Of a stretch of 34,111 bases of DNA, positions 13,115-32,736 are shown piece by piece. The stretch's first letter is position 1. Each line of letters begins with the position of its first letter. Under the pieces are notes generated by a model. The model had not been told where the DNA came from. It saw only the letters and a list, made by a program, of their open reading frames with translations, and did not search any database. The stretch is from a virus, in the IMG/VR virus record IMGVR_UViG_3300047478_000032, positions 1 through 34,111 of that record. One strand, given 5' to 3'. A program made the translations under genes and the position numbers.

Positions 13115-15016
13115 ATGGCAGTTAAAGTAAGCGGAGATAATGTTATCTTATATAAAATAGATACATCTACAATTCCAGCAACGGAGACTGTGTTTGCTTG
13201 TGCAAGGGGATGTACATTTGAAAGCCAAACAGATATATCAGAAACTACATCAGCAGTAAACGCTTGGTTTAAAGAAGATAAAGAGAATTTATCAGCATGG
13301 ACTATGTCATTAGATGGGATAGTTACATTAGATAATTTTTCATATGAGGATATTGCCCAAGCACAAAAAGATAGATTATTGCTTTTAACAAGATTTAGGT
13401 TTGATAATGGCATAGATGGTTATAGATACATTAGCGGTTATTGTTTTATAGGTGGTTATTCCATAAGCGGTGATTATAAGGACATAGGCAGTTATAATGT
13501 TACATTAACGGGAAGTGGAAAGTATTATACAGACGCAACTCCTACAACGACAAGTACTACAACGAGTACGACATCAACATCAACCTCAACTACAACAAGT
13601 ACAACGTCTACCTCTACGAGTACATCTACAACGACCTCTACGACTACGACAAGTACAACTACATCAACGACTACAACACAAGCCCCAGTATATTACAAAT
13701 TATTTAATTGTGCTACTGGTGCTACTGAATATTCAAGAGGATATATTAGCGGCTCATTTGCGGTAAATGACCGAGTTACTGCTATTGGGCAAACATTTAG
13801 AATTGACCAAGTATTAATATCAGACCCAGGCGGTTTGGCATTGTCATTAACGGCAACTGGGCTTACTGGGTGTCCAGCTACAACATCAACGACCACTACT
13901 TTGCCTCCATTAACATTAAGTTTAACAGTGCTTTGTAATAACGTTGGAACATATCAAGGAAAGGTGGTAGCGACATGGTCTGGTGGTAGCGGAAGCGGTT
14001 ATCAAATTAGAGCGGGTTATGGCTTCGCTTCTCTTAGTACTTATAGGTCAATGGGTATTACACAAACATTAACATTAACAAGTGATACTAACCCTTATGA
14101 TGGTACAAGTGGATTAAGAAATACAACTGGAGGTAGTGATGTATTTGTAGTTCAAGTAATAGACAATAACGGAGCTGGAGCATTTAATTCAACAACACAG
14201 ATTACTGCTATTGCTTGTGCTGGTACAACTACTACAACATCTACGAGTACAACAACAATGCCTCAAGTGTGGTATTTACTTTATAATTGTGCTACTGGAG
14301 CGACTACTACATCTACTAACTATGTAGATAATACATTTCAATTAAATGATAGAGTTACCTCAATAGGTAATACTTATAGAATAGACCAAGTTTATTATAG
14401 CAATCCAGGTGGAACACAATTACCAATTACTGCAACTGGTTTGACTGGATGTCCAGCGACTACAACAACTTCTACGACATTAGCACCAGTAAACTTTGAT
14501 ATTAGTTCTGTTTGTGATGGTATATATCAAGATGTTACTATTAATAATTTTACTGGAGGTAACGGAAGCTATCAAGCAAACACTACTACATATGATACGC
14601 CATCTGCTGCTATTGGCGGCTTATTTACTCCAGTGAGTGGTAGTAGATTATTTGATAACCAACCTGGTACAACTAACAGATATGTGGCAGTAAAAGATAG
14701 TGCTGGATTTGGTTTAGTTATTAAATTTGTAAATGCTAACTGTACTACTACTACAACTACAACAACAACATCTACAACAACAACTGCCGCTCCTCCAGCT
14801 TGTTCTTGTTGGACAGTAGTTAATGAAACAAGTTCGACTGGTAACTATACATATGATAGATGTGGTGCTGGTTCTACAACAAGAAGTATCCCAGCGTTTG
14901 TAACTCAAACAATATGCGTAACAGAAGGTACAACTCCTACTGCTAATACAGTTGGATTAACAATTTATCCTTGTGGAACTGCTTGTACTGTAAATTCAGA
15001 CTGTACGCCATGTTAA
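13115..15016 (+). CDS. Thr/Ser-rich tail-associated adhesin-like protein with a tail-tube-like N-terminus
   Basis: This 633-residue protein is modular. Residues 1-138 resemble the tail-tube-like protein of the preceding gene and probably anchor it in the virion. Residues 144-188 are 45 consecutive Thr or Ser. Two related domains (192-255 and 385-448; shared NCATGAT, NDRVT, YRIDQ/FRIDQ, TATGLTGCPATT) alternate with two Ig-like domains (about 265-370 and 459-543), separated by shorter Thr/Ser linkers (256-262, 371-381, 449-455, 544-557). The C-terminus (562-633) is cysteine-rich with eight Cys. The linkers look like mucin-type sites for O-glycosylation, and three glycosyltransferase genes follow directly. 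The function is inferred to be host-surface or matrix binding. It has its own strong promoter. Confidence 0.65.
   Translation: MAVKVSGDNVILYKIDTSTIPATETVFACARGCTFESQTDISETTSAVNAWFKEDKENLSAWTMSLDGIVTLDNFSYEDIAQAQKDRLLLLTRFRFDNGIDGYRYISGYCFIGGYSISGDYKDIGSYNVTLTGSGKYYTDATPTTTSTTTSTTSTSTSTTTSTTSTSTSTSTTTSTTTTSTTTSTTTTQAPVYYKLFNCATGATEYSRGYISGSFAVNDRVTAIGQTFRIDQVLISDPGGLALSLTATGLTGCPATTSTTTTLPPLTLSLTVLCNNVGTYQGKVVATWSGGSGSGYQIRAGYGFASLSTYRSMGITQTLTLTSDTNPYDGTSGLRNTTGGSDVFVVQVIDNNGAGAFNSTTQITAIACAGTTTTTSTSTTTMPQVWYLLYNCATGATTTSTNYVDNTFQLNDRVTSIGNTYRIDQVYYSNPGGTQLPITATGLTGCPATTTTSTTLAPVNFDISSVCDGIYQDVTINNFTGGNGSYQANTTTYDTPSAAIGGLFTPVSGSRLFDNQPGTTNRYVAVKDSAGFGLVIKFVNANCTTTTTTTTTSTTTTAAPPACSCWTVVNETSSTGNYTYDRCGAGSTTRSIPAFVTQTICVTEGTTPTANTVGLTIYPCGTACTVNSDCTPC
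13544..13678 (+). repeat. Low-complexity ACN/TCN/AGT codon tract encoding 45 Thr/Ser
   Basis: Every codon in this stretch is Thr or Ser. The codons vary freely (ACA, ACG, ACT, ACC, TCA, TCT, TCC, AGT), so selection acts on the amino acid content, not on a DNA repeat unit. Shorter tracts of the same kind occur at four other points in the gene. Confidence 0.9.
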
Positions 15017-30454: not shown

Positions 30455-30646
30455 ATGACACAAAACCAACAAATCAAGAGTTATTTAGAGAAAGGTAAAT
30501 CTATAACTCCTATTGACGCATTAAATAAATTTGGCTGCTTTAGATTAGCTGCAAGGATTAACGAATTACGAAAAGATGGGTTAAATATTGTAACTAAAAT
30601 TGTAACTAAAGAAGGTAAAACATATGCAAGTTATAAACTATGTTAA
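30455..30646 (+). CDS. Helix-turn-helix protein
   Basis: The 63-residue protein resembles a small winged-helix/HTH family of phages: QIKSYLEKGKSITPIDALNK (6-25), then FGCFRLAARINELRKDGLNI, and a wing-like YASYKLC at the end. It probably binds DNA as a dimer and could regulate early genes or assist replication. It overlaps the methyltransferase start by 7 bases (ATGTTAA), so the two are coupled. Confidence 0.7.
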   Translation: MTQNQQIKSYLEKGKSITPIDALNKFGCFRLAARINELRKDGLNIVTKIVTKEGKTYASYKLC

Positions 30647-31440
30647 CTCACGCATCCCTTTTTAGCGGCATTGGTGGATTTGACCTTGCCGCTGAATGGA
30701 TGGGTTGGGATAACCTATTCCATTGCGAATGGAATCCTTTTGGACAAAGGGTTTTAAAACATCATTTTCCTAATTCAATTTCATACAATGACATTACTAA
30801 AACAGACTTCTCTATTCACAAAGGAGCAGTCGACATCATTACTGGAGGTTTCCCTTGCCAACCATATTCAACCGCAGGTAAAAGACTTGGGAAAGCCGAC
30901 GAAAGACACCTCTTTCCAGAAATGCTTAGGGCAATTAAAGAAATCAAACCAAGATGGGTTATTGGGGAAAATGTTCGTGGACTTGTTAGTTGGAACGGCG
31001 GGTTGGTATTCGACGAGGTCTGTGCTGACTTGGAAGGCGAAGGGTATGAGGTACAACCGTTTATTATTCCTGCTGCAAGTGTCAACGCACCGCACCAAAG
31101 ATACAGAATTTGGTTTATCGGATTTAAAAACAATGATGTTAAAGACGCCAACAGTATCGGACAAAAATGGGGGTTGCACGAGGGGGAACCCGAAAATGCA
31201 AATGGGAAGCAGTTTAGTCAATCAGATGCATCAAATATGCAAAACAACGCCTGGAAAAACTTCACAACTGAATACCCGCTTTGTAATGGAAATAATGGGA
31301 TTTCCGAAAGATTGGACGGAATTACCTTTTCAAAATGGCGAAGCGAATCAATCAAAGCAGGTGGGAACGCAATAGTACCACAAGTGGCTTTACAAATATT
31401 TAAAGCTATAGAAGAATTTGAATTAATGGTAAATAAGTAG
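30640..31440 (+). CDS. DNA (cytosine-5) methyltransferase
   Basis: The 266-residue enzyme transfers a methyl group from S-adenosylmethionine to C5 of cytosine. All key motifs are visible: motif I SLFSGIGGFDLA (6-17), motif IV GGFPCQPYS (69-77) with catalytic Cys73, motif VI GENVRGL (109-115), motif VIII QRYRIWFIGF (153-162), a short target recognition region (about 165-230) and motif X GNAIVPQVA (242-250). No restriction enzyme is nearby, so it is an orphan, most likely protecting phage DNA from host restriction. A second long frame (30788-31375) runs inside it in the +1 frame. Confidence 0.93.
   Translation: MLTHASLFSGIGGFDLAAEWMGWDNLFHCEWNPFGQRVLKHHFPNSISYNDITKTDFSIHKGAVDIITGGFPCQPYSTAGKRLGKADERHLFPEMLRAIKEIKPRWVIGENVRGLVSWNGGLVFDEVCADLEGEGYEVQPFIIPAASVNAPHQRYRIWFIGFKNNDVKDANSIGQKWGLHEGEPENANGKQFSQSDASNMQNNAWKNFTTEYPLCNGNNGISERLDGITFSKWRSESIKAGGNAIVPQVALQIFKAIEEFELMVNK
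30788..31375 (+). CDS. Overlapping +1-frame gene inside the methyltransferase (putative)
   Basis: A 195-codon frame lies entirely within the methyltransferase gene, in the +1 frame. Its product contains AGWYSTRSVLTWKAKGMRYN, then KTPTVSD, and ends KTSQLNTRFVMEIMGFPKDW followed by TELPFQNGE. I recognise these as features of hypothetical proteins from Bacteroidota phages, often with repeated LPTPTA-like motifs. The motif here lies over DANSIG in the methyltransferase frame. The frame has its own ATG but no separate promoter. It could be a true dual-coding gene, or a shadow that looks conserved only because the methyltransferase is. Antisense frames here are also unusually open (up to 117 codons), which weakens the length argument. 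Confidence 0.5.
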   Translation: MTLLKQTSLFTKEQSTSLLEVSLANHIQPQVKDLGKPTKDTSFQKCLGQLKKSNQDGLLGKMFVDLLVGTAGWYSTRSVLTWKAKGMRYNRLLFLLQVSTHRTKDTEFGLSDLKTMMLKTPTVSDKNGGCTRGNPKMQMGSSLVNQMHQICKTTPGKTSQLNTRFVMEIMGFPKDWTELPFQNGEANQSKQVGTQ

Positions 31441-31450: not shown

Positions 31451-31545
31451 ATGGATGTCGCATATCCAGTATAAACTTATTAGGGAGGAGGATGAAAAGC
31501 AAATGCGACTTGCTTGGATTCCAAATCCCTTTTTTTATTTTATGA
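31451..31545 (+). promoter_or_regulatory. Structured leader with short upstream ORFs before the replisome organiser
   Basis: GTCGCAT (31457-31463) and ATGCGAC (31503-31509) are a perfect inverted repeat, extended inside by ATCC/GGAT (31464-31467 and 31490-31493). The purine-rich GGGAGGAGG, one of the few Shine-Dalgarno-like stretches in the genome, overlaps ATG 31492. That ATG opens a 17-codon frame whose TGA forms ATGA with ATG 31542. If the protein instead starts at 31455, this is coding sequence. Confidence 0.4.
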
Positions 31546-32219
31546 GCAAAGACCCAGCCGTGTTATTTTACACAAGTGATTTTCTTAGTGGCACTTTTAC
31601 AATGACAAATGAACAAGTTGGAATGTATATCCGTTTACTTTGTTTGCAGCACCAAAAAGGCAAATTAACTAATAAGGATATGTTAAGCATATGTAAAGCA
31701 TATGATGTTGACATTTGGAGCAAATTTGTAAAAGATGGCGAATTTTATTACAATGAGCGTATGTATAACGAGACTATTCGTAGGCAAAAATTTAGTGAAT
31801 CAAGGCGTAATAACGCTAAATCTACTAAAAGCACAAGCAAAGCATATGCTCAGCATATGGAAACTGAAACTGAAAATGGAACTATAACTATAAATAGAAC
31901 TAAAACTAAAACTGAAATACTGGACGAAAAGTTTGAAGATTGGTGGTTATGGTACGATTATAAGAAGTCAAAAGATAAGGCAAAAAAGTCTTGGAATACT
32001 TTGACTGAACAAGAAAAGGATTTAGCTTTACAATCTGTACAAGCCTATGTACAATCAACTCCAGATAAAACCTTTAGAAAACATCCTACAACATACTTGA
32101 ATCAAAAATGCTTTAACGATGAAATTATCACAAGAAATACAACAAGTCAAACAAGAGTTAGCCACGCTACCGAAGAACAGTTTATCCAGACTGCTTTTAA
32201 ACGTAATGGCGGTTGGTAG
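31542..32219 (+). CDS. Replisome organiser-like protein (DUF1376-type)
   Basis: I chose ATG 31542 (MSKDPAVLFYTSDFLSGTFT), where proteins of this family usually begin; the frame is also open from ATG 31455, which would add 29 residues and lies at a leaderless distance from the promoter. The 225-residue protein has an N-terminal winged-helix domain like phage replication organisers (SDFLSGT, EQVGMYIRLLCLQHQKGKL), a basic Ser/Thr/Lys linker (about 88-130) and a C-terminal helical domain (WWLWYDYKKSKDKAKKSW) resembling helicase-loader partners. It should bind the origin and recruit host helicase. It overlaps the next gene by 101 bases. Confidence 0.75.
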   Translation: MSKDPAVLFYTSDFLSGTFTMTNEQVGMYIRLLCLQHQKGKLTNKDMLSICKAYDVDIWSKFVKDGEFYYNERMYNETIRRQKFSESRRNNAKSTKSTSKAYAQHMETETENGTITINRTKTKTEILDEKFEDWWLWYDYKKSKDKAKKSWNTLTEQEKDLALQSVQAYVQSTPDKTFRKHPTTYLNQKCFNDEIITRNTTSQTRVSHATEEQFIQTAFKRNGGW

Positions 32220-32736
32220 TACTGGTGAGGTATATAATCAAATGTGCCAATACAAAGAGAAAGGCGAACCAAATCATTTAGCCGTAATGCAGAACATACC
32301 TAAAGACCAAAGGTTACCACAAATAGCTAAGTTATACGGCACAGATAAAATAGCCACTGTATTAGGTAAGCAAATAACAAGAACATTATCTAATTTTAAT
32401 CTTAGGGTTGGAATGAATACAGAGCAGATTTATGATTTAGCTTTAGCCATTATTGAAACTGCCGAAGAAGACAATTTAGCCGTTGAGGATATAATGCTTT
32501 TTTTAGATGGACTACCTAAGTTTAAATACGGCAAAGTCTATGATAGAATGGATATGCCTACCTTTTTTGAGATGTTAGAAGTTTATAGAGAACAAAGACA
32601 TCAAGCGTTTGTTAATGCAAGAGAAGAACAACACGCTCAATTTAAGTCAATGGGTGATAGTAACAGAATGACTACTGACACAGACAAAGAGGCTAACCGA
32701 AACGCAATGAAACAATACTTACAAAACCTTAAATAA
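32119..32736 (+). CDS. Replication-associated helical protein (DUF6633-like)
   Basis: The 205-residue protein is largely helical and ends with a pattern I associate with Bacteroidota phage replication regions: LPKFKYGKVYDRMDMPTFFE (132-151), then EVYREQRHQAFVNAREEQHA. No enzymatic motif is visible. It may be a helicase loader or cofactor of the preceding protein. The long 101-base overlap with that gene would shrink to 14 bases if ATG 32206 (MAVGSTGEVYNQM) were the true start; both are plausible. Confidence 0.6.
   Translation: MKLSQEIQQVKQELATLPKNSLSRLLLNVMAVGSTGEVYNQMCQYKEKGEPNHLAVMQNIPKDQRLPQIAKLYGTDKIATVLGKQITRTLSNFNLRVGMNTEQIYDLALAIIETAEEDNLAVEDIMLFLDGLPKFKYGKVYDRMDMPTFFEMLEVYREQRHQAFVNAREEQHAQFKSMGDSNRMTTDTDKEANRNAMKQYLQNLK

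Follow-up and report, generated by a model that had tools for sequence, protein, structure and literature searches.

A viral cytosine-5 methyltransferase gene that very probably encodes both subunits of a two-polypeptide enzyme in nested frames

Background

Prokaryotes seldom have long conserved overlaps of two reading frames, and annotation pipelines dismiss most of those that occur. The cytosine-5 methyltransferase (C5-MTase) M.EcoHK31I has its small subunit encoded within the gene of the large subunit, in another frame. The motifs of this two-polypeptide enzyme (YGGCCR) are distributed over both chains, the large subunit carrying motifs I-VIII and X as well as the predicted target recognition domain, and the small subunit motif IX (PMC3404938). 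The same paper cites a 1995 study according to whose title in vitro methylation requires two proteins. M.AquI is another split C5-MTase made of two polypeptides, in which the small subunit carries motif X along with motif IX (PMC3404938).

We analysed a stretch of 34,111 bases from a virus (IMG/VR record IMGVR_UViG_3300047478_000032, positions 1 to 34,111), hereafter called the window, in which a C5-MTase gene contains a second long ORF in another frame. Judging from its sequence, this gene (30640-31440) very probably encodes both polypeptides of a two-subunit C5-methyltransferase of the M.EcoHK31I kind, one of them (beta) being nested in the other (alpha).

Organization of the locus

The alpha ORF (frame 0, 266 codons) occupies positions 30640-31440 of the plus strand, on which all features described below also lie. 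Its start is overlapped by the stop of an upstream winged-helix (HTH_39) gene (30455-30646; Pfam PF14090, E 2.3e-13). The catalytic motifs can be followed along the frame: motif I SLFSGIGGF (30655-30681), evident in the sequence and in the PF00145 alignment; motif IV GGFPCQP with the catalytic Cys (30844-30864); motif VI ENV (30967-30975) and motif VIII QRYR (31096-31107), both read from the sequence; and, close to the end, motif X GNAIVP (31363-31380). The PCQ of motif IV, the whole of motif VI, R154 and R156 of motif VIII, and G242, N243 and P247 of motif X are invariant in 78 relatives. The gene has a G+C content of 41%, against 35% for the window, an excess that is perhaps the cost of coding in two frames or the sign of a recent transfer. 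Downstream, a DUF1376-like gene (31455-32219) and a DUF6633-like gene (32119-32736) share about 100 bases, which they read in different frames.

The nested ORF (beta, frame +1) runs from ATG to TAG over positions 30788-31375 and encodes 195 amino acids. Its start codon (30788-30790) falls at MTase codon 49-50, an ATG near codon 48 being conserved among relatives, and its stop codon (31373-31375) falls inside the codons of alpha motif X. The best-predicted part of beta in the AF2 model is a hairpin core, VLTWKAKGMRYNRLLFLLQVSTHR (residues 78-101; 31019-31090; block pLDDT 76-86), in which W82 and L96 are invariant. This ORF had been pointed out by an earlier reading made from the sequence alone (the sequence-only reading), and its coordinates and the sequence blocks quoted for it were recovered in the translation; the longest other same-strand out-of-frame ORF is indeed 83 codons long (13515-13766), and antisense ORFs in the nested segment do reach 117 codons.

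Coding evidence for the nested frame

The +1 open run in the window gene is 205 codons long. When synonymous codons were redrawn 20,000 times from the codon usage of the window, this length was never reached (maximum 146), and synonymous shuffling within the gene itself reached it in 9 of 20,000 trials. No comparable +1 or +2 run was found in the 18 other genes of the window. The same holds for its relatives: in a set of 67 distinct viral CDS (the window gene and 66 relatives) the +1 frame is open over 185-379 codons, and in none of the 67 was the observed length attained by any of 300 synonymous permutations of the gene. The mean +1 run in this set is 240 codons, against 91 after permutation, and +2 runs average 37 codons. 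As a control, 53 of 57 other C5-MTases showed no excess +1 openness. The four that did are L293, L266, L269 and L306; L293 proved to be a further nested beta, its motif IX being degenerate, and L266 and L269 led to the second +1 family described below.

The +1 frame is also more similar between relatives than the MTase frame imposes. In 19 sequence pairs its similarity exceeded the expectation for a shadow of the MTase (z 2.6-12.8), and it exceeded the +2 control in all 19. Selection was assessed on 65 aligned CDS with an OLGenie-style count. The frequency of differences that change beta and leave the MTase unaltered was 0.56 and 0.68 in the two MTase stretches outside the nested ORF, at 0.39 inside it opposite the catalytic half, and at 0.26 in the part coding for motif IX (see below). 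Inside the nested ORF, dNN/dNS was 0.56 (0.45-0.70) for the +1 frame versus 1.25 (1.03-1.56) for the +2 frame; in the motif IX part the corresponding values were 0.27 (0.16-0.44) and 1.00. With an SN/NS of 0.69 (0.40-1.17) in this last part, the constraint on the +1 frame appears to be at least equal to that on the MTase frame. The variable middle of the nested ORF shows clear constraint in neither frame.

Signals of translation initiation were counted over individual genes, relatedness being uncorrected in these and the following figures: NAT was used over NAC in 117 of 132 contexts able to make the beta ATG, versus 56% elsewhere in the same genes, and the beta start codon is thus kept by synonymous choice. 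By the same counting, 56 of 88 genes from outside the Bacteroidota have a Shine-Dalgarno (SD)-like site ahead of the beta ATG, versus 16% of other out-of-frame ATGs in the same genes. No such enrichment was seen before the beta start of Bacteroidota-type genes, that of the window included (8/131 versus 22% in controls, again uncorrected). Use of SD sites is generally weak in Bacteroidota, and the missing signal is consistent with this.

A competing explanation is that beta is a shadow ORF, untranslated, and that its openness and similarity follow only from conservation of the MTase sequence and its composition. All homologues that we found do overlie MTase genes, and the beta profile does find shadow matches in canonical MTases; these are weak, however, interrupted by one to five stops, and confined to the part opposite the catalytic domain. 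Permutation, pair similarity, selection with its +2 control, start choice and SD sites all indicate constraint beyond that of frame 0. The shadow-only explanation was accordingly rejected on the permutation, similarity, selection and start-codon tests, and we regard it as very improbable.

The 195-codon +1 frame is therefore real and under selection, and the proposal of the sequence-only reading that a second protein-coding frame is nested in the methyltransferase gene agrees with the open-frame, similarity, selection and start-codon tests. Among the findings that it had named as speaking against coding, the restriction of homologues to MTase genes was borne out, every homologue lying in or over such a gene, but does not refute coding, because relatives keep the frame open (with the exception of locus L026) and the frame shows excess constraint. 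Stop codons in close relatives proved limited to this single exception, and the last of these findings, a lack of excess constraint at synonymous sites of the MTase, is contradicted by the excess found inside the nested frame.

Distribution of the nested arrangement

A tblastn search with the +1 protein matched 10 phage records, and in the nine loci fetched the match lay each time in the +1 frame of an MTase. These loci include Lactobacillus, Porphyromonas and marine phages, with an MTase identity near 35%. In all of the 80 viral MTase relatives fetched, the +1 frame is open over at least 185 codons. Among close relatives, a +1 stop ahead of motif IX occurs in L026 alone: it lies at L026:1902 (frame open 1299-1901, match continuing to 2102), and the MTase frame is intact. 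The nested layout was found in bacterial, plasmid and phage relatives of several phyla, including 80 bacterial loci from Bacteroidota, Bacillota, Pseudomonadota, Nitrospirales, Phycisphaerales and others. The nested arrangement occurs in hundreds of phage and bacterial genes. The sequence-only reading had pointed to a conserved family of Bacteroidota phages, some members having extra LPTPTA-like repeats; such a family exists, and its range extends well beyond Bacteroidota. Stand-alone relatives of beta were sought with single sequences and profiles, and none was present in the examined loci of phages, plasmids, viral contigs and bacterial genomes.

Some loci depart from the common layout. Single indels displace both frames together in L149 and L159, the frame-0 ORF of L102 is split close to its beginning, and three further loci (L141, L142 and L164) are truncated. 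In the Paenibacillus macquariensis locus (L149, 2182-3191) the indel lies in the variable region, so that the catalytic domain and motif IX share a frame and motif X falls in another; this may reflect a fusion of natural origin, a disrupted gene or an error in the sequence. Of 79 viral loci related to the more distant subfamily of Escherichia phage K1H, 76 have the nested layout, the frames being shifted in the other three. In three similar viral contigs (L255, L256 and L258) the MTase frame is broken around position 2016 and the beta frame has an unusual offset. Four loci of unrelated phages (L005, L006, L007 and L185) have a phosphoadenosine phosphosulfate reductase-like gene in the neighbourhood of the nested MTase.

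The missing motif of alpha

Alpha has motifs I-VIII and X, a set that is kept in 78 relatives. PF00145 aligns to its residues 4-184 only (E 4.7e-46), the alignment to TIGR00675 ends at residue 183, and the motif IX pattern RxLTxxExxRLxGFP was not found in frame 0 of the window gene. In the AF2 model, residues 1-165 and the C-terminal helices are folded, and residues 169-223 (31144-31308) form a linker predicted to be disordered (pLDDT about 40), which occupies the place of the small domain of single-chain enzymes. The nearest PDB structures to alpha are M.HhaI and M.HaeIII, matched over about 165-176 columns. The hydrophobic fraction of frame 0 between motifs VIII and IX is 0.20; that of the catalytic part is 0.37, and that of the +1 frame in the same region 0.25.

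A profile built from 147 beta sequences had its best match in 67 canonical MTases at motif IX (score 28.5, P 0.004), the maximum score of 40 column-shuffled profiles being 17.5. The alignment sets GktsqLNPxFVxEMMGFPxxWTe of beta against R-LTPREaaRLQGFPD of the canonical enzymes, and the segment identified in the window by this comparison is LNTRFVMEIMGFPKDWTEL (31268-31324). In the middle half of 132 genes, 19 codons separate the +1 motif IX from the frame-0 motif X, and the two motifs are 20 residues apart in the canonical enzymes L266 and L269. Since motif IX lies on beta, spaced from motif X about as in canonical enzymes, the part missing from alpha is found in the other frame; the +1 protein is thus not "unrelated" to the methyltransferase, as had been supposed from the sequence alone. 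Between motifs VIII and IX, beta contains zero to four PTP-like units, whose number tracks the length of the region (correlation 0.81); the window gene has one copy, TPTVSD (31145-31162).

We infer from these sequence features that the small domain, which reads the DNA, is for the most part made up by beta. Modelled by itself with AF2, beta is poorly resolved (pLDDT 60), too poorly for its fold to be judged; comparison of this model with the PDB by Foldseek and VIA-align gave no significant match and no C5-MTase small domain; nor did a PDB sequence search with the beta profile return a match.

The catalytic domain, the +1 motif IX and the frame-0 motif X are ordered and spaced as in a single-chain enzyme, and in L149 a single indel is enough to place the first two in one frame. 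Both observations could be accommodated by programmed frameshifting from frame 0 to +1, which would yield one fused chain with catalytic domain and motif IX. A complete enzyme, however, would need two opposite shifts, a single one ending at the beta stop without motif X. Moreover, the +1 ORF reaches some 100 codons upstream of the useful shift point, and beta has its own conserved ATG and often, outside Bacteroidota, an SD site. Frameshifting is thus highly unlikely, and separate translation of alpha and beta is the reading that we prefer.

Family databases and literature

The window beta matches PHROG 1008 (E 1.2e-14), as do all 86 beta sequences compared (best E 3.9e-72). This family is named 'DNA methyltransferase', which says nothing of a second-frame origin or of the subunit status of its members, and is apparently the beta family itself, with a borrowed name. 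Scans of the 86 sequences against Pfam and NCBIfam gave scattered single matches only, taken as chance, and the beta family is absent from both. Annotated pairs with the same +1 layout are present in the Escherichia phages K1H and K1ind3 (a 'C-specific methylase' with a nested 'Mte8-like protein') and in Paenibacillus phage Bloom (two nested CDS, both annotated 'DNA cytosine methyltransferase'). The nested proteins of these phages match the beta profile (E 8.6e-21 to 9.7e-65) and represent distant subfamilies, for which the annotation states no role of the nested frame. A literature search found no published description of the nested family in phages. The two-polypeptide nested kind of C5-MTase is already known; its breadth seems to be under-recognised, as do the absence of beta from Pfam and NCBIfam and its placement in PHROG 1008 as a 'DNA methyltransferase'.

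A second family of +1 ORFs

Clostridial phages, among others, have single-chain C5-MTases in which we identified a second +1 ORF family, with a tail of the form SLSDILE..V.EKYFLS. The MTases L266 (1501-2607) and L269 (1486-2724) have motifs IX and X in frame 0, yet carry a long conserved +1 ORF of this type, which spans about 147-216 codons in full-length genes (L266, L269, L347-L426). In 26 of 27 fetched non-redundant genes its length was never matched in 200 permutations, and the remaining gene gave p 0.01. The family corresponds to PHROG 16143, which is also named 'DNA methyltransferase', and matches were found in 207 phage records, mostly of Streptococcus. Deposited annotation contains nested pairs of this second type in the Streptococcus phages P0092 and MM1. 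The control MTase L306, from Firmicutes, has a 175-codon +1 run beyond permutation that shows no similarity to either +1 family.

The explanation by a missing part does not cover this second family, because it has no motif IX, and +1 ORFs of C5-MTases may have roles besides the supply of this motif. Beta itself could be an overlapping gene of separate function (for example in anti-restriction or regulation) nested in the MTase by chance. The half of beta opposite the catalytic domain has no assigned role, PHROG 1008 is its only family annotation, and the MTases beside which the second family occurs already possess motif IX. This alternative is nevertheless unlikely, as beta has precisely the motif IX that is missing from alpha, separated from motif X by roughly the canonical spacing, and no beta homologue was found apart from an MTase. 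More broadly, out-of-frame nesting of beta might be a general and ancient coding mode of C5-MTases in phages and mobile elements, the +1 frame carrying a sequence-reading domain with duplicated TPTxxD units, frameshifts having split motif IX from a single-chain ancestor, and the second family lying beside MTases that seem complete in frame 0. We put this wider scenario forward tentatively, and are inclined to doubt it more than to favour it. The second family merits separate study.

A putative two-subunit enzyme

According to the reading that we prefer, that of a nested two-subunit enzyme, alpha would be translated from 30640 and provide the AdoMet-binding catalytic domain (motifs I-VIII) and motif X, and beta would be initiated separately at the internal ATG (30788) and end inside the codons of motif X. 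Beta would supply motif IX and the variable TPTxSD-containing stretch, and most likely acts as the DNA-recognising small domain. The two chains are predicted to assemble into an active C5-methyltransferase, and this heterodimer would methylate phage DNA, probably against host restriction. No restriction enzyme was found by a Pfam scan among ten nearby genes, so that an orphan protective methyltransferase is the simplest role.

The nested pair is a long out-of-frame overlap kept across phages and bacteria of several phyla, and offers a clear case in which to study the sharing of constraint between two frames. Should activity depend on beta, the single-protein annotation of many phage C5-MTases would describe a chain that is inactive on its own, and target specificity would be looked for in the wrong frame.

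Comparison with known enzymes

M.HhaI and M.HaeIII share the catalytic fold of alpha, but have their motif IX and small domain in the same chain. M.AquI resembles the window pair in that two polypeptides make one enzyme, and differs in the position of motif X, which is on alpha in the window. In Streptococcus phage MM1, a 'C5 methyltransferase alpha subunit' and a nested 'beta subunit' have been deposited, likewise an alpha gene with a beta in another frame; this pair belongs to the second +1 family and not to that of the window. The closest likeness, compared by description, is with M.EcoHK31I: in both, motifs I-VIII and X are on the large polypeptide and motif IX on the small one. The window gene shows both the motif distribution and the nested frame that characterize this kind. 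The two differ at the place of target recognition, where alpha of the window has only a disordered linker, the variable TPT-containing stretch being in beta.
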